NCBI GenBank assembly: GCA_947471505.1
Contig: CANIWM010000033.1
Coordinates: 1 to 56,127 of the forward strand
Direction of reading: 5' to 3'
DNA from: Chthoniobacteraceae bacterium
Lineage (GTDB): Bacteria > Verrucomicrobiota > Verrucomicrobiia > Chthoniobacterales > Chthoniobacteraceae
DNA length: 56,127 nt
In this document: positions 2,915 through 56,127 of the stretch, one piece after another
How positions within the stretch are numbered: position 1 is the first letter of the stretch
How the letters are laid out: each line of letters starts with the position of its first letter
Notes under the pieces: model-generated
Told to the model about the DNA's origin: nothing
What the model saw: the letters and a program-made list of their open reading frames with translations, nothing else
Databases searched by the model: none
Program-made: the position numbers and the translations under genes

Positions 2915-3042
2915 AGTTTTTCTGAATGATTTAGTGAGACAAATGGAGCACGCCCTGAGCGTTTCTTGTGCCGGTGGAACTCCATTGGACGCTCCTCCTT
3001 AGCGGCTCGTTACTAGAATGGCAGGAAAAAGAACGCTCTCGC

Positions 3043-4140
3043 TCAGCTCACCTTGCGTAGTTTCGTAATGCGGCCCGAATCTACCCACTCCGCCACGACG
3101 ATGTTCCCGGCGGCATCGAAGCACGCGTCGTGAGGGTGCAGGAATTTCCCCGCCACCCACTCTTCGCGGGTCGTGCTGCGGCGCATTTTGTTCCCGTCTT
3201 TCGTCACCTGCGCTCGCCATTCGGGGTCTTCGCCGAGGTGGACGAGCACCTCGTCGTTTTTGCCCAGCAACGTGACTCGGGCGCTGAGGTCGGGCACGAG
3301 CAGCACGTCCCCACGGCTGTCCGCGTTGGCTGGGAGGATAAAGCCGTCCAATGTCTTGAGGTGCTTCCCTTCCAGCGTGAACCACTGGAGCCGTTTGTTC
3401 GCACGGTCGGTCACAACGACAGAGGCCTCTCGGCCTGGACGATTATCAATCCACACCCCATGCGGAGTATTAAACTGCCCCGGGCCCGTGCCTCGTTCGC
3501 CAAACATCGAGAGCCAGTTCCCATCCTTGTCGTAGCGGTGGATGCGGAACGAGCCGTAGCCGTCTGCGAGAAAGAATCCGCCGTCCGGCAGGAACGCGAA
3601 GTTCGTCGGCATAAACGCATCGGCGCCCCAGCGTTTCTTCGGCGCGGTGTCCTCGCCGACGGGGTAGAGCTTGGAGTCCATCGGCGCGTGCTTTTCCCAC
3701 ACCGTCTCGCCCTTCAGCGTGAGCTTTGCGAAGCTCTTAATCATCTGATACGCAGTCACATAGAGGAACTGCTGCCCGCCCTCCGTCCGCACCTCCAGCC
3801 CGTGCCCGCCGCCTTGAAACTGATTGCCAAAAGCGCGCACGAATTTGCCCTCCGCATCGAAGACGAAAATGGACGGATGGTCCTTCATATTCTCCCGCCC
3901 TTCGTGGATGACGTAGAGCAGTCCCTCGGCATCCACTGCGACATTGTGCGTCGTCTGCCACGAATACTTATCCGGGAGTTGCGGCCAGTTGTGCAGCACT
4001 TCGTAGCGATGCTCGCCGCTGCCGATGATGAGCGGCTCGCTGCCTTTCTGGGCGGTGAGGATATGCGGCACCGCAAAGGCAGCGGCACTGGTGGTGATAA
4101 AACGACGGCGGGAAATGTATGGTGTAGTTTTCATGGTCAT
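3043..4140 (-). CDS. Tat-exported NHL-repeat beta-propeller protein
   Basis: The 365-residue protein carries a twin-arginine signal (SRRRFITTSAAAFAVP, residues about 10-25), so it should be exported folded. The remainder shows NHL-type blades: repeats of the form 'VAVDAEGLLYV', 'FVFDAEGKFVRAFG', 'FAFLPDGGFFLADGYG', 'TPHGVWIDNR' and 'HDACFDAAGNIVVAEW'. This indicates a beta-propeller of about six blades. The family includes peptidylglycine-lyase-like enzymes and binding scaffolds; no catalytic residues can be assigned here. Translation could start at 4140 or at the second Met codon at 4134. The gene is divergent from 4248. Confidence 0.8.
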   Translation of the reverse strand: MTMKTTPYISRRRFITTSAAAFAVPHILTAQKGSEPLIIGSGEHRYEVLHNWPQLPDKYSWQTTHNVAVDAEGLLYVIHEGRENMKDHPSIFVFDAEGKFVRAFGNQFQGGGHGLEVRTEGGQQFLYVTAYQMIKSFAKLTLKGETVWEKHAPMDSKLYPVGEDTAPKKRWGADAFMPTNFAFLPDGGFFLADGYGSFRIHRYDKDGNWLSMFGERGTGPGQFNTPHGVWIDNRPGREASVVVTDRANKRLQWFTLEGKHLKTLDGFILPANADSRGDVLLVPDLSARVTLLGKNDEVLVHLGEDPEWRAQVTKDGNKMRRSTTREEWVAGKFLHPHDACFDAAGNIVVAEWVDSGRITKLRKVS

Positions 4141-12925: not shown

Positions 12926-13741
12926 ATGAAAAACCGAAAACACACAAACATCCTGAGCGCCATCATTCCGGTGGTCGCTCTCACATTCACGCTCCTCGGA
13001 GCATCTCACTCGTATGCAGCCGTCGACTCAAATGACATCGACGGCGACGGCATCCCGAACATCGTCGATCCCGATGTGGACAACGACGGCATCCCGAACG
13101 GCCTCGACCGAAACGTGGACGGAGGCCGCGCGAAAAGCGGGCCTTTCATCGGCAAATGGGTCGGCGACCACGTTGCAAATAGCAGCCCTGCGGAGAAAGA
13201 TATCGATGCCGATGGTCTCGCCGATGATTCGCTCGCGGAAACAGACATCGACGGCGACGGTCTGGAGGACGACTCCGCCGCCGAACTCGATATCGATGGA
13301 GATGGCCGTCTGGACGACGCCGACAACGAACGCGACATCGATGGCGACGGGAAACTCGACACTGCCCGCGCGGAAACAGACATCGACGGCGACGGCAAGG
13401 ACGATGACTCAGCCGAGGAGAACGACATCGATGGCGACGGGGTAAACGACGACTCCATCGACGAAGATGATATCGACGGGGACGCAAACAATGACGACGC
13501 AAGGCGCGAAAAAGACATCGATGGCGACAGTATCAAGAACGGCATCGATGACGATGTGGACGGCGACGGGCTAGACAACATGAACGATGCGGACGACGAC
13601 GGCAATGACGTGAACGACGATACGGATACCGACGACGATCACGACGGACACCACGACAAAGAAGGCGAGAATCACGGCGGCAATCAGACCGGCGGTGGCG
13701 ATGGCCATGAGGACAGCGACGAAACGGTAGGACACGACTAA
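12926..13741 (+). CDS. secreted Asp-rich calcium-binding-type repeat protein
   Basis: The 271-residue protein has a signal peptide (residues 1-31, ending SHSYAA) and then an extremely acidic chain of DxDxDG motifs of the thrombospondin type 3 / EF-hand-like kind, which bind calcium. Eight tandem 15-residue units of DIDGDGxxDDxxxEx form the core (see 13199-13558), flanked by less regular DxDNDG motifs. The C-terminal 45 residues are Asp/His/Gly-rich. It should be extracellular and stabilised by calcium. It follows the sigma factor by 11 bp and is closed by a strong terminator, so it is the end of that transcription unit. Confidence 0.85.
   Translation: MKNRKHTNILSAIIPVVALTFTLLGASHSYAAVDSNDIDGDGIPNIVDPDVDNDGIPNGLDRNVDGGRAKSGPFIGKWVGDHVANSSPAEKDIDADGLADDSLAETDIDGDGLEDDSAAELDIDGDGRLDDADNERDIDGDGKLDTARAETDIDGDGKDDDSAEENDIDGDGVNDDSIDEDDIDGDANNDDARREKDIDGDSIKNGIDDDVDGDGLDNMNDADDDGNDVNDDTDTDDDHDGHHDKEGENHGGNQTGGGDGHEDSDETVGHD
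13199..13558 (+). repeat. eight tandem 45-bp units encoding DxDGDG repeats
   Basis: Eight in-phase units of 45 bp, each encoding 15 residues beginning DID(G/A)DG or a close variant. The units are similar enough in DNA to allow copy number change by recombination without loss of frame. Confidence 0.8.
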
Positions 13742-16730: not shown

Positions 16731-17398
16731 TTCGTAGGTGTGTCGTCGAGGAAGGTGAGTTCGTTGGACGTGTGGCCGTCGGCATAGAGGACGTTCACGT
16801 TGTTGGTGAGGTGCGGGTGGAAGCCTTCTTTGTCGCCCATGACCATGATGCGCGAGGCTTCGTCTATGATGCCTTTTGCCACGAATGAGACGCGTAGAGC
16901 GGCGAGCTTTTGTCCGCTGAGTTTCCAGTTCCACAAGTAGCTCGTGCCGCTCGTCTGCCACAACTTGCGGTCGTCGGCGGGGCAGGCGAAGACGCGCGAG
17001 TCTGTGAGGTAGGGAGCGAGCACGGTATCGAGTGCGGGCTCCGGGTCGGTCTTCTTTTCGCGGGCGAGGGCCATCGTGGGGAAGGTGCCGTCGTTTTCGC
17101 CCACGTAATGCACCAACGCGCTGCCGAGTTGGCGGAGATTATTCATGCAGGCGGCGGCCTTCGAGGTGCGCTGCGTGCGCTGCCAGACAAGCGATGAGAG
17201 TGTCGCGAGTATGGCGATGACGGCCATGACGACGAGCAGCTCTAGCAGGGTGAAGCCGCCGTCGCACTTGCGTCGTAGCTGCGACGCCCTCGTCGCAGGT
17301 GGTGCCTGCGACGCCCCGTCGCAATCGGCGCGTAAGCGGCGAGGCGCCGCTGGCACTTCCTGCGGCGGGGCGCCGCAGCTACGACGAATTGCGCTCAT
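16727..17398 (-). CDS. prepilin-like protein with an expanded leader
   Basis: The 223-residue protein has a type IV pilin / type II secretion pseudopilin signature, GFTLLELLVVMAVIAIL, with cleavage expected after Gly48 and Glu53 at mature position 5. The rest resembles the PVC family with a C-terminal H-X(9-10)-DG motif (NVLYADGHTSNEL). The leader is 48 residues, far longer than the usual 6-25, because a 116-bp palindromic repeat (17271-17386) lies within it and is read through in frame. The start at 17398 forms an ATGA overlap with the previous gene's stop. Whether the prepilin peptidase still accepts this leader is unknown. Confidence 0.82.
   Translation of the reverse strand: MSAIRRSCGAPPQEVPAAPRRLRADCDGASQAPPATRASQLRRKCDGGFTLLELLVVMAVIAILATLSSLVWQRTQRTSKAAACMNNLRQLGSALVHYVGENDGTFPTMALAREKKTDPEPALDTVLAPYLTDSRVFACPADDRKLWQTSGTSYLWNWKLSGQKLAALRVSFVAKGIIDEASRIMVMGDKEGFHPHLTNNVNVLYADGHTSNELTFLDDTPTK
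17271..17386. repeat. 116-bp multi-hairpin (REP/MITE-like) element inside a gene
   Basis: The ends form a 16-bp inverted repeat with 15 matches (17271-17286 with 17371-17386). Inside are hairpins at 17292-17312 (8-bp stem, 5-base loop) and 17335-17351 (7-bp stem, 3-base loop). A third, 17360-17378, competes with the outer stem. No target duplication is obvious. It encodes an Arg/Ala/Pro-rich stretch of the prepilin leader. Confidence 0.75.
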
Positions 17399-44532: not shown

Positions 44533-44790
44533 ATGAAGCCGCTCCTTCTTTTCCTACTCACCGCCAGCATCCACGCCGCCACGCCCGTCTCGGATATCAA
44601 AGTGCCCGCTGGGTTCAAAGTGGAGTTGCTCCACGAAGCCGGACAGCGCGAGGGCTCGTGGATCTCCATGGCGCTCGATGCCGAAGGGCGCATCTACATT
44701 TCCCCGCAAGGCAGCATCCCCGAGAGCGGCATGGCGAAGGACTCCAAATGGGGCGGGCTTTGGCGCGCTACGCTGCGCAATCGCCAATAG
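44533..44790 (+). CDS. 5' part of a PVC-type CxxCH protein gene, cut by an amber codon
   Basis: This 85-codon frame encodes a signal peptide (MKPLLLFLLTASIHAA) and the start of the beta-propeller usually found at the N-terminus of PVC heme-binding CxxCH proteins (IKVPAGFKVELL, then GGLWRATL). It ends in a TAG at 44788-44790 inside an inverted repeat. The same phase continues openly from 44791 into the large frame at 44896-48165, where the expected propeller resumes. So it looks like the 5' end of one gene broken by a single stop within a repeat. It may be a pseudogene, be suppressed by readthrough, or be a genuine short protein. Confidence 0.6.
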   Translation: MKPLLLFLLTASIHAATPVSDIKVPAGFKVELLHEAGQREGSWISMALDAEGRIYISPQGSIPESGMAKDSKWGGLWRATLRNRQ

Positions 44791-44896
44791 CCAATAGCCA
44801 ATAGCAAAGACCCCGAGAGCGGGAATCCATCTGGCAAAGAACCTTCATCAAACGATAAATCGCCCGCCAGCGCGCCTGCGTCTGCTATTGGCGATT
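44779..44896. repeat. inverted CCAATAG element inside the CxxCH gene
   Basis: Perfect 13-bp inverted ends (44779-44791 with 44884-44896). At the left end the 7-bp unit CCAATAG is repeated three times (44784-44804). The first copy supplies the in-frame TAG. Whether this was an insertion is inferred from the propeller sequence being interrupted exactly here. Confidence 0.65.
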
Positions 44897-47800
44897 TGCC
44901 ATCGGCTATTACGCAGTGGGAAAAAGTCCCCGTCCCCGTGGGCGACAGCATGGGCATGCTCTGGGCGTTCGACTCCCTCTACGTCTCCGGCAACGGCCCA
45001 GAAGGTCGCGGCATCTACCGCTGCAAAGACACCGACGGCGACGGCCTCCCCGACACCGCCGTCATGTGGAAAAAAGTCCCCGGCGGCTCCGGCGAACACG
45101 GCGCCCATGCCCTCATCTTGAGCCCCGACAAAAAGAACATCTACATCGTCCACGGCAACGCCACCGGGCTCATCGACGGCATCGCGCCCGACTCCCCGTA
45201 TCGCAACTGGGGCGAAGACGATCTCATCCCCAAACTCAAAGACCCCACCGCCACATTTTTCGACAACATCAAAGCGCCCTACGGCTACGTCGTCCGCACC
45301 GACGAGGAGGGCAAAAAGTGGGAGCTCATCGCCGGCGGCTTCCGCAACCCCTACGACATCGACTTCAATACCGACGGCGAACTCTTCACCTACGACAGCG
45401 ACATGGAATGGGACCGCGGCCTCCCGTGGTATCGCCCCACGCGGGTGCTCCACATCGTCCCCGGCGGCGAATACGGCTTCCGCGAAGGCTCCGCAAAAAT
45501 GCCCGCCTACTACCCCGACACCCTGCCCGCCGTAGTGGACATCGGCCTCGGCTGCCCCACCGGCGTGAAGTTCGGCACCACCGCCGCCGGCTGGCCATCC
45601 AAATACCGCACCGCATTCTTCGCGTGCGACTGGACCTACGGCCGCATCCTCGCCGTCCACCTGAAGGAAAAGGGCGCGAGCTACACCGCCACGAACCCGC
45701 TCAAAAGCACCACCTTCCCCAAAGACGCCGAGTCCTCCGCCGACGTAGAGCCCTTCGTCGTAGGAAAGGGAATGCCCGTCACCGATGTCGAGTTTCTCAA
45801 AGACGGCAGCATGGTCTTCACCACCGGCGGGCGCGGGACGAGCGCGGGGCTTTATCGGGTGAGCTATGGACTGCATGGACAGGATGGACGCGATGGACAA
45901 AATGGACGCGCTGAGCCGGAAAACGCCCGTCCATCCAGTCCATTGAGTCCATTGAGTCCATCGAACAACGCAGCCACGGAGAAAAAGCCGGGCGGCATCC
46001 CCTGGAACCGCCCCGAAAAGTGGGAAGGCCAAGGGCCATTCAAGGAAGACCCAAAGCAGCGCGAAGAGGCAGGCATCACCGCTGAACAGATCATGGAGGT
46101 GAGGAGCAGACTCGACGCGATTGCTGAGGAGGTGACCGAATTGAAGATAACGACCAATTACGGCGACGATGGGACGCCTGAACAGCGCACGCGACTCAAA
46201 GCATTGGAAAGGGAGTACGCCGAGATTGTTGATCCAAAAAGAGTTCGGAACATAGGTCCACTAGTCCCATTCCGAGACGGCTTCGAGATACTGAGGGACT
46301 CCGAAGCATTCGGGCGACTATCGAAAGAGGAGCAGAAACAACAGAAGCTCCGGCTTGCCCGGTGTGCTGCCCGAGGTCAATTCGTGCCCGGGATTCCTGA
46401 GAAGATCGGTCAGGAACTTATCTACGATCTAAAGTCGGTCATTGAAGACGAGAACGTGCAGCACACAACGTTCAAGCTATCCGCATACGGGCGGATTCAA
46501 ACGCAACGGAAAGACACGATCGCATGGTTCGTGTGGATCGTGTGGACTCACGGCCATCGTCCACCGCGAGAGGACTTGGGCATGTTGCTCGGAATGGCTT
46601 CAAACCCCGAGCACGCGTCAGAACAGGTGGACCTTATGGACTGCTTGAAATTGTTCCCCCTCAAAGACCTCCCCGACGACCTCAAGCTCCTCAAACTCCG
46701 CATCCTGCAACTCACCTTCGCCCGCCACGGGCGGCCTTCGGAGGAATGGCAGAAGCTCGGCCTCGAAAAGCTCCTTGCCGCCTACCCCGCGACGCCCAGC
46801 CCCAAGGAAACCCCCAAGGAGGGGGGCCGTCCCGGCCCCCTGAGCCGCGAAGCGGCTCCAGCGACGCCCTCTGGGAACCCCTCCGGGGTTCAGGGGGCCG
46901 AGACGGCCCCCCTCCTTGAAGTCTCACGCACTGCGGAGCTGAATCGCGCGCTTTCCCAGCTCCTCGTCTGGCTCTCGCAGCCGGAGCTGGGCGACTTGAC
47001 GCAAGTTGCCGCCGCCAAGCCGAAAGATGGGGGTGTCGAGCAGTCGGGTGGACCCGCAAAGTCGCCCGGTGCCGCCACGCAGCAGTCTGGTGCAGCCGTC
47101 CAGCCGTCCGGCGAGGGCGCGGAGCAGTCGGAGACGCCCGTAAAGTCGTCGGGAAAGCCCGTCGAGTCGTCGGGAGCCGCCGTGAAGTCGTCCGACGTGG
47201 CCGTGGAGTCGTCGGGAGAGGACAAAAAGGCGTCGGACGTGCCCGAAAAGTCGAAAGGCTTGCGGGGGACATACTTGGCGTCCAACGACTTACAACGCGA
47301 CCCGTCGAAACCAGTGCCGAACCCCGGTGCTGTGGAACATAAGGGCAGGAAGGGGCAATTGTTCCACGCCGAGCTCGGGCAGCAGGTGATCGAGAAGACT
47401 TTGGCGCTGATGGATGCCGCGCCTTCGCAGGAGGAACAAATTTCATACGCCCTCGTCCTCCGCTGGGCGCATGGGTGGACGCCGCAACAGCGGGAGCGGT
47501 ATTTCCGGTGGTTCCATGAGAAAGCCGCCCGCTTTCCCGGCGGGAATTCGATGCAGGGGTTTATCAGAAAAATCCACACCGAGGCGATGGTGCGTCTCAA
47601 CGACACGGAACGCGCCGCGCTCAACCAGTGGCTCATCCCTTTGACCGGCCCGGCTCCCGAACTCATCTCGCCGCGCGGCCCAGTCAAAGAGTGGACGCTC
47701 GCGGGGCTGGAAAAAGAGCTCGATGCGCTGAAGGACTACAAGCCGGACTTGGCTCGCGGTAAGGCGTTTTTCGCCGAGGCGCAGTGTTCGCGCTGCCATT

Positions 47801-48165
47801 TGTTCAAGGACACGGGCGGCAACGTCGGCCCGGATTTGACGGCGGTGGCGCAGCGGTTCCAGCGGCACGATATTTTGGAGGCGATCACGGACCCGAACAA
47901 GGTCGTGAGCGACCAATATTCGCTGACGACGCTGACGGTGATCAAGTTTGGCGGAGGCGAAGAGGCAGTGACCGGGCTGCTGCAAGAGGAGACGAGCGGG
48001 ACCATCCGCATCCTGACGGACGCACTGAGCGGGGCGACGCGGGAGTTTTACCACAACGTGGTGAAGAAGAAGGAGAAGGCGGCGGTGAGCATCATGCCGC
48101 CCGCGCTGCTGAACATCATGACGGCGGAGGAGGTGGCGGACTTGCTGGCGTTTTTAGGGAGGTGA
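44896..48165 (+). CDS. PVC-type heme-binding CxxCH protein, main part
   Basis: The frame encodes about 1089 residues; the start given is a TTG at 44896 inside the repeat, and the frame is open from 44791, so the true start is unclear (an ATG lies at 44950). The first 320 residues are the propeller of the 'membrane-bound dehydrogenase' type (LLWAFDSLYV, GEHGAHALILSPD, FGFREG-like EYGFREG). The last 140 residues are the heme-binding domain with CSRCH encoded at 47785-47799. Between them lie repeat inserts and a segment of lower GC. The family is periplasmic and presumed to be redox-active with carbohydrate substrates. Without the upstream signal peptide this part would not be exported. Confidence 0.8.
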   Translation: MPSAITQWEKVPVPVGDSMGMLWAFDSLYVSGNGPEGRGIYRCKDTDGDGLPDTAVMWKKVPGGSGEHGAHALILSPDKKNIYIVHGNATGLIDGIAPDSPYRNWGEDDLIPKLKDPTATFFDNIKAPYGYVVRTDEEGKKWELIAGGFRNPYDIDFNTDGELFTYDSDMEWDRGLPWYRPTRVLHIVPGGEYGFREGSAKMPAYYPDTLPAVVDIGLGCPTGVKFGTTAAGWPSKYRTAFFACDWTYGRILAVHLKEKGASYTATNPLKSTTFPKDAESSADVEPFVVGKGMPVTDVEFLKDGSMVFTTGGRGTSAGLYRVSYGLHGQDGRDGQNGRAEPENARPSSPLSPLSPSNNAATEKKPGGIPWNRPEKWEGQGPFKEDPKQREEAGITAEQIMEVRSRLDAIAEEVTELKITTNYGDDGTPEQRTRLKALEREYAEIVDPKRVRNIGPLVPFRDGFEILRDSEAFGRLSKEEQKQQKLRLARCAARGQFVPGIPEKIGQELIYDLKSVIEDENVQHTTFKLSAYGRIQTQRKDTIAWFVWIVWTHGHRPPREDLGMLLGMASNPEHASEQVDLMDCLKLFPLKDLPDDLKLLKLRILQLTFARHGRPSEEWQKLGLEKLLAAYPATPSPKETPKEGGRPGPLSREAAPATPSGNPSGVQGAETAPLLEVSRTAELNRALSQLLVWLSQPELGDLTQVAAAKPKDGGVEQSGGPAKSPGAATQQSGAAVQPSGEGAEQSETPVKSSGKPVESSGAAVKSSDVAVESSGEDKKASDVPEKSKGLRGTYLASNDLQRDPSKPVPNPGAVEHKGRKGQLFHAELGQQVIEKTLALMDAAPSQEEQISYALVLRWAHGWTPQQRERYFRWFHEKAARFPGGNSMQGFIRKIHTEAMVRLNDTERAALNQWLIPLTGPAPELISPRGPVKEWTLAGLEKELDALKDYKPDLARGKAFFAEAQCSRCHLFKDTGGNVGPDLTAVAQRFQRHDILEAITDPNKVVSDQYSLTTLTVIKFGGGEEAVTGLLQEETSGTIRILTDALSGATREFYHNVVKKKEKAAVSIMPPALLNIMTAEEVADLLAFLGR
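45866..45963. repeat. inverted 9-bp ATGGACNNN arrays in coding sequence
   Basis: Five copies of ATGGACNNN at 45866, 45875, 45884, 45893 and 45902 are followed, after a 21-bp spacer, by four copies of the complement, GTCCATNNN, at 45929, 45938, 45947 and 45956. The 9-bp period keeps the reading frame, giving Gly-x-x triplets, then Ser-Pro-rich peptide. Confidence 0.85.
46816..46917. repeat. 102-bp four-way (cloverleaf-like) repeat in coding sequence
   Basis: Outer arms 46816-46843 and 46890-46917 pair with 27 of 28 matches. Inside lie two 7-bp hairpins, 46842-46858 and 46875-46891, each with a 3-base loop. The length, 102 bp, is 34 codons, so the frame stays open. The build matches the element at 48181-48281. 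Confidence 0.85.
47035..47265 (+). repeat. eleven 21-bp tandem units encoding Ser-Gly heptads
   Basis: Eleven in-phase heptads of the form V-(E/K/Q)-(S/Q)-S-G-x-x, such as VESSGAA and VKSSGKP, from 47035 to 47265. The last two are degenerate. It would be a disordered linker in the protein. Confidence 0.8.
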
Positions 48166-48180
48166 AGACGGGAGCGAAAC

Positions 48181-48281
48181 GAATGGGAGCGGGGCTTTCC
48201 TAAGCCCCGTTGCCACGTCAGTGGCAATCGCGCTGGCCGCTGACGCGGCTCGCACGGGGCTTAGGAAAGCCCCGCTCCCAT
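48181..48281. repeat. 101-bp palindromic element between convergent genes
   Basis: Perfect 29-bp inverted arms (48181-48209 with 48253-48281) enclose two hairpins, 48210-48225 (6-bp stem) and 48235-48248 (5-bp stem). It lies between the CxxCH gene and larB and could end transcription both ways. The length and build match the coding element at 46816-46917, though the sequence differs. Confidence 0.88.
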
Positions 48282-48302
48282 TTGCGTCTTCCAGCGATCT
48301 CT

Positions 48303-55984: not shown

Positions 55985-56127
55985 CTAAAAACGGCAGTTG
56001 ACCCCGTTTTTGAGGCCGAAAAATAGGGTATTTTACTCTGGAAATTGCCAACTGCGGAGCAGTTGAAAATCACTCACCCGTCCAAGGCTCATTTTTCTCT
56101 GAAAATCCGTTCAACTGCCGTTTTTAG
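55985..56127. mobile_element. MITE-like element with perfect 17-bp terminal inverted repeats
   Basis: The 17-base ends CTAAAAACGGCAGTTGA (55985-56001) and its exact complement (56111-56127) enclose a 109-bp AT-richer core with no gene. The right end is the last base of the window. It is most simply a non-autonomous transposable element. Its transposase is not in the window. Confidence 0.7.

Follow-up and report, generated by a model that had tools for sequence, protein, structure and literature searches.

About eleven in-frame hairpin insertions among eight orthologues of one cytochrome gene in the Chthoniobacteraceae

The gene analysed here encodes a PVC-type (Planctomycetes-Verrucomicrobia-Chlamydiae) CxxCH cytochrome and lies at positions 44533 to 48165 of the window, by which we mean the whole stretch of 56,127 nucleotides under study (contig CANIWM010000033.1 of the Chthoniobacteraceae assembly GCA_947471505.1, a genome of 6.07 Mb in 153 contigs that is labelled G000 below; the window gene is the G000 copy). 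Across eight orthologues of this gene about eleven in-frame hairpin insertions were counted, at sites that are empty in some relatives and filled in others, and three loops have each been filled twice. We consider it likely that both REPIN-like elements and inverted oligomer arrays insert widely and that they persist in the exposed loops of this cytochrome. Small non-autonomous hairpin elements would thus have entered the gene repeatedly within the family, whose members live in soils and lakes. Two kinds may be discerned: REPIN-like doublets, probably moved in trans by tyrosine transposases of the RAYT type (associated with repetitive extragenic palindromes, REPs); and inverted arrays of 7- or 9-bp units, which would be a second kind of arrival and for which no enzyme was found. 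In-frame insertions in exposed loops and linkers would be tolerated and presumably translated as disordered segments, while those elsewhere would be removed by selection.

The cytochrome gene and its inserts

The predicted protein has a signal-peptide-like start, a beta-propeller, a helical region and a C-terminal heme domain; judged by eye from its N-terminus it is probably exported. The open reading frame (ORF) that follows the single in-frame TAG scores 88.7 bits for the TIGR02603 heme domain (cut-off 68.15). For the TIGR02604 N-terminal domain it scores 47.2 bits, below the cut-off of 122.2, as do the full-length orthologue of G006 (50.4) and that of Chthoniobacter flavus Ellin428, G024 (36.4). 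The AlphaFold2 model of the window protein has a mean predicted local distance difference test (pLDDT) score of 68.7. Foldseek, run on this model, finds the propeller similar to soluble quinoprotein glucose dehydrogenase (best match 1qbi, E 6.5e-9), which points only to a propeller resembling those of sugar dehydrogenases. The features in and beside the gene are:

44533 to 48165, plus strand: PVC-type CxxCH cytochrome gene, with one in-frame TAG (44788-44790) and the heme motif CSRCH (47785-47799)
44773 to 44916, unstranded: insert 1, an inverted heptamer array (CCAATAG/CTATTGG) inside the propeller, arms 44773-44806 and 44883-44916
45866 to 45964, unstranded: insert 2, an inverted array of a nonamer (ATGGACNNN) that follows the last strand of the propeller, arms 45866-45890 and 45928-45952
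46045 to 46654, plus strand: diverged low-GC helical segment, not an insert, 54% identical in amino acids to G009, helices in the model
46815 to 46918, unstranded: insert 3, a cloverleaf REPIN-like element of 104 bp, among orthologues in the window copy only
47026 to 47259, plus strand: linker of 21-bp (7-codon) units, hypervariable between species, containing tandem arrays of period 21 and 42 bp (47127-47245)
48182 to 48282, unstranded: hairpin element just 3' of the gene with perfect 29-bp arms, missing from G006; its family also surrounds a RAYT-like gene (G000:C100)

Insert 1 has arms that are 82% complementary (DNA fold z -2.8) and sits between the predicted propeller strands E62-66 and E111-116. 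Insert 2 consists of two tandem runs, 45866-45910 and 45929-45964 (z -4.2), and insert 3 has a fold z-score of -9.1, which none of 200 shuffles equalled. In the AlphaFold2 model, residues 75-107, 433-500, 750-781 and 804-925 (model residue plus 15 gives the codon number) have pLDDT below 50 and coincide with inserts 1, 2 and 3 and with the linker; they are among the longer of such stretches.

An earlier note on this DNA had read five discrete inserts or repeats into the gene, all between the propeller and the heme domain. All five features (the inverted CCAATAG element, the inverted 9-bp array, the cloverleaf, the 21-bp tandem array and a segment of differing composition) are indeed in the sequence, and so is the open frame with its one stop: reading TAG as X leaves a single internal stop, at codon 86 within insert 1. 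Some details required correction. The cloverleaf measures 104 rather than 102 bp, and the CCAATAG element lies inside the propeller and not beyond it. Of the five, the hairpin elements stand as inserts; the 21-bp array is better described as a fast-changing linker, and the segment of differing composition (GC 0.547 at 46030-46640 against 0.618 for the whole gene) as a replaced region. The latter has no blastn match in G006, is predicted to form helices and has the 54%-identical counterpart in G009. It was consequently rejected as an insert and is regarded as a diverged or replaced helical region common to one relative.

Orthologous sites: empty, filled and refilled

Orthologues, taken as matches with E<=1e-100, are present in eight of 40 genomes of the family: the window genome, G006, G009, G003, G024, G014, G028 and G004 (partial). 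The G009 orthologue is split over two contigs and was taken as one gene. A tblastn search for HisF, LarB, TsaB, GNAT and UDG in the fetched stretches around the orthologues found them beside the G006 gene only; synteny therefore gives no support to orthology in the other genomes, where the assignment rests on sequence identity.

Site 1 holds the CCAATAG array in the window and G006 and a different array in G004, and is empty in G009, G003, G024, G014 and G028. Site 2 is filled, among orthologues, in the window and G006 only. Site 3 carries the cloverleaf in the window and another, weaker hairpin (score 15) in G003, and is empty in G006 and G009. An inverted array occupies site 4 in G003, and different hairpins fill site 5 in G014 and G028. 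Further inserts lie before site 1 in G028, in the linker of G014 and after the linker in G006. In the total of about eleven, insert 2, detected in both the window and G006, counts as one event, and the site-3 insert of G003 is included although it falls below the detector threshold. The eleven insert sequences have no pairwise blastn match at E<=0.01, and the events were presumably independent. The double use of three loops, i.e. site 1 (window/G006; G004), site 3 (window; G003) and site 5 (G014; G028), fits structural tolerance.

Eight of the eleven inserts have matches at other places in the genomes that were sampled or searched: inserts 1 and 2 and the cloverleaf (for all three of which the earlier note had suggested a search for other copies), the post-linker insert of G006, the site-3 and site-4 inserts of G003, the site-1 array of G004 and the site-5 insert of G028. 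The match for site 4 of G003 is weak, a single one of 25 nt. In the alignment, four of the five features noted at the outset fall in segments that orthologues lack or replace. The opposite outcome, close orthologues carrying the same segments as conserved domains, was not found for the hairpin elements, insert 1 being absent from five orthologues and the cloverleaf from G006 and G009; with empty sites in close orthologues, the inserts were rejected as conserved domains. At the level of DNA, then, the proposal that the gene tolerates repeat insertions as linkers is well supported.

All four genus members whose sequence covers the stretch (window, G006, G009 and G003) have a linker of some form, always with a period of 21 or 42 bp in a test that admitted multiples of 3 only. 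In G003 its sequence appears unrelated by eye: at 3006-3283 of locus L037 (G003:C81) there are 14 units, each of 21 bp and with a palindromic core, unlike the linkers of the other genus members. Among paralogues, one in G014 (L182) bears an insert in its homologue of the site-1 loop, and one in G004 carries two elements. A further hairpin was seen at 4777-4929 of L186 (G004:C73), inside the ORF that adjoins the latter paralogue.

Enrichment, element families and transposase genes

Elements were counted with custom scripts for inverted-repeat detection and gene calling (main setting: score >=17, span <=220). The orthologous gene contains 12 elements in 23,886 bp, distributed over six of the eight genomes; this number includes the palindromic tandem linker of G003, and insert 1 of G006 and the site-3 insert of G003 are below the detector threshold. 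Coding DNA sampled from five genomes contains a single element in 640,968 bp. The conditional binomial p for the orthologues against this background is 6e-17, a value inflated by the double counting of insert 2 and by the choice of the window gene for the very feature counted. As the window gene had been nominated for its repeats, we also counted without it and obtained 9 elements in 20,253 bp. The lone background element lies in the open frame of a planctomycete cytochrome of the PSCyt1/DUF1592 type (L161 8880-8970, G000:C24); the G028 sample (30.6 kb), where a stretch of N had given rise to false elements beside a single genuine one, intergenic, was not counted towards the background. In 73 distant homologues, drawn from the best 80 of 584 matches less six family members, one element was detected within the genes (169,530 bp) and 38 in their flanks (600,828 bp). 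Seventeen fetched paralogues have 4 elements in 48,366 bp, of which the one in L180 coincides with the beginning of the ORF and may lie upstream of the true start codon; an extra paralogue match (L181, span 267) appears only at a wider span setting.

The elements are not chance products. In 400 kb of the source genome 17 were detected at score >=17, against 0 and 0, then 1, then 0, 1, 1, 0 and 0 in successive shuffles of that sample; samples of five genomes contained 17, 1, 0, 3 and 9, and their shuffles (five each) 0 or 1 per sample. Fourteen of the 17 in the G000 sample are intergenic, two overlap genes near gene ends and one is inside a gene. The 56-kb window holds six elements, three of them in the cytochrome gene and one just 3' of it. 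Elsewhere in the window, a hairpin element at 17271-17386 is intergenic according to our gene caller, and an inverted repeat with 26-bp arms (55985-56127) occupies the extreme contig end, where the assembly possibly broke. Tandem repeats of 39, 45 and 135 bp at 13045-13528 resemble aspartate-rich protein repeats.

Tolerance of in-frame insertions would account for this enrichment. The earlier note had also raised the option that the gene is a preferred target. Such a preference, owing to its sequence or its transcription or replication context and going beyond mere tolerance, we regard as possible but not probable. The enrichment is large, the orthologues exceeding even the 17 same-family paralogues (12 elements in 23.9 kb compared with 4 in 48.4 kb, p ~7e-4), and the same loops are reused. 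However, the elements lack mutual sequence similarity and presumably depend on different enzymes; five genes neighbouring the window copy were not found in the fetched stretches around the orthologues other than that of G006, so that no single locus seems responsible; and insertions purged by selection elsewhere would be invisible and leave the same enrichment.

The cloverleaf element belongs to a dispersed family. Its 48 blast matches in G000, which often hit a single place on both strands, reduce to 26 places, and it is matched also in G006, G007, G005 and G001, i.e. in five of ten genus genomes; blast found none in the other five. Of the 26 places 20 were fetched, and 19 of these copies are intergenic; the remaining one, which is shortened (L226 1446-1523, G000:C6), lies in the open frame of a radical-SAM gene in the same peptide frame. 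In an alignment of 17 copies, 8 of the 38 predicted pairs have changed on both sides with the pairing kept (a count of sequences and not of events). All 17 end in CAAGGAG...CTCCTTG, and none carries a GTAG or CGTC tag at its ends. With two inverted hairpins in about 100 bp, dispersed and mainly extragenic, the family has the attributes of a REPIN. In the sister genome G007, doublets of this family flank both sides of a RAYT-like (Y1-transposase) gene at G007:C85 (L238), a neighbourhood picked because cloverleaf matches were already known there. Of 19 RAYT neighbourhoods examined, three match families in or beside the cytochrome gene: the cloverleaf at G007:C85 only; the family of the 3' element, with five copies around the RAYT-like gene at G000:C100; and the family of the in-gene element of G006, on both sides of the one at G000:C97. 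The RAYT-like proteins score 78.8, 75.5 and 63.7 bits against NF047646 (NCBIfam), below its cut-off of 80, and exceed the Pfam cut-off for PF01797. The latter domain occurs in all ten genus genomes and in five of 14 control genomes, and is thus not specific to the genus. Transposition of these doublets by the RAYT-like proteins is consistent with such adjacency.

Beside the REPIN-like doublets, the inverted 7- and 9-bp arrays make up another class of element. Of the elements sampled, 4 of 17 (G000) and 5 of 9 (G004) have periodic arms, with many different units. An alternative origin, in which the arrays are made in place by slippage and template switching rather than by insertion of dispersed elements, is suggested by this diversity of units and by the want of any transposase link for the arrays. 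We hold it to be rather unlikely, since related arrays recur at other places. The CCAATAG array (<=2 mismatches) recurs once more in G000 and three times in G006, two genomes in which a reversed control pattern gave 0 (it gave 7 in G001). The 9-bp array of insert 2 has six further matches within G000, and in other genomes it is matched six times (G006), four times (G008), twice (G009) and once (G003), which makes five of ten genus genomes; the site-1 array of G004 has a match in an intergenic element of that genome.

Selection, known repeats and significance

Comparison of the window gene with that of G006 gives dN/dS (non-synonymous over synonymous divergence) values of 0.06 for the part preceding insert 1, 0.26 for the remainder of the propeller and 0.20 for the C-terminal part; the core of the gene is under purifying selection. 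Values for the inserts, 1.27 and 0.59, derive from very few changes and are not firm. It would seem unlikely, therefore, that the inserts are retained for a useful diversity which they would give to the surface or linker of an exported protein: linkers and inserts do vary between genus members, and all four keep a 21- or 42-bp period despite the apparently unrelated sequence in G003, but the insert values are consistent with no constraint at all. The C-terminal part (47362-48165) stands out by its dS of 0.61, compared with 0.09-0.18 in four neighbouring genes, which suggests its exchange by recombination.

That the gene is merely decaying, with insertions piling up as in a pseudogene, might be read from the in-frame TAG and from this raised C-terminal divergence, and is very improbable given the core dN/dS of 0.06-0.26, the ORFs of the other orthologues, which are open over their available extent, and a window branch that is not accelerated on the propeller (12 synonymous and 7 non-synonymous changes against 18 and 10 on the G006 branch, with 9 ambiguous). 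G006, the closest orthologue, is open at the site of the TAG. When G009 serves as outgroup, change along the window branch is not accelerated downstream of the TAG, so that the stop would be recent, polymorphic or an assembly error.

Several observations weigh against repeated landing and tolerance of mobile hairpins. The window TAG should stop translation, so that this copy may not yield a full-length product. Three inserts (G014 site 5, the G014 linker, and the one before site 1 in G028) match nothing in the sampled stretches, and no element was detected in two of the eight orthologues (C. flavus G024, and G009 with its split gene). Inserts 1 and 2 match none of the 19 RAYT neighbourhoods, and target-site duplications were neither sought nor demonstrated. 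Nor is the gene unique: its paralogues too exceed background (p ~1e-4), and a gene neighbouring the CxxCH paralogue at G004:C73 carries an element. Low pLDDT is to be expected wherever aligned homologues are lacking, and other short segments also fall below 50. Finally, the frames of the cloverleaf family are no more open than those of shuffles (3.59 versus 3.76 of six), for which reason we rejected the idea that the elements are adapted to code.

Intragenic palindromic repeats as such are already known. In the available part of an account of GTAG/CGTC REPs from 2013 (PMC3733652), small palindromic repeats are described within ORFs, where they encode amino acids; intragenic GTAG repeats are most numerous in Opitutus terrae, a member of the Verrucomicrobia; some ORFs were hit twice, and different REPs entered about the same recB site in two Xanthomonas species. 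Our elements share with these the palindromic form, the position within ORFs, a verrucomicrobial host and the double use of an ORF or site. They differ in that the cloverleaf ends carry neither tag. That paper, moreover, as far as its accessible part goes, stresses genes for DNA replication and repair, whereas here about eleven events concern one cytochrome, and it describes no inverted 7- or 9-bp arrays. With the REPINs and RAYTs of PMC3116915 (2011), in the portion available, the cloverleaf family has in common inverted hairpin doublets that are dispersed and adjoin a RAYT gene; the REPs there are overwhelmingly extragenic, and the RAYT-like proteins here are below the NCBIfam cut-off. Rickettsia palindromic elements (RPEs) of 105-146 bp, the classic example, are, according to the parts seen of PMC2229807 and PMC3733652, fused in frame within protein genes, and the effect of one in a tested protein was judged neutral or slightly detrimental. 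The likeness, drawn from description and not from compared sequences, is that of palindromic elements in frame within protein genes; the host phylum is another, and here several sequence-unrelated families share one gene. Heptamer direct repeats of TAACTGA, in the excerpted text of PMC4679880 (2015), likewise form arrays of 7-bp units, mostly intergenic, and insertions between the subunits of modular proteins are suggested there to be possibly tolerated; our arrays are inverted, have other units (7 or 9 bp) and are intragenic. We found no published account of inserts in this cytochrome gene, the subscription literature having been mostly beyond the reach of the search. New, then, are the concentration in one cytochrome gene, the mixture of element classes and the refilled loops.

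Tentatively, one might go further and see in this single exported cytochrome gene a lasting acceptor of unrelated mobile hairpins, in which most loop differences between lineages come from repeats, the same loops are refilled independently by different families, and the resulting linkers may diversify the exported protein. The role of selfish repeats as a source of protein sequence is usually argued from insertions across many genes. A single gene with about eleven in-frame events at empty, filled and refilled sites, some of whose elements are tied to a tyrosine transposase gene, makes tolerance, targeting and use separable by experiment.

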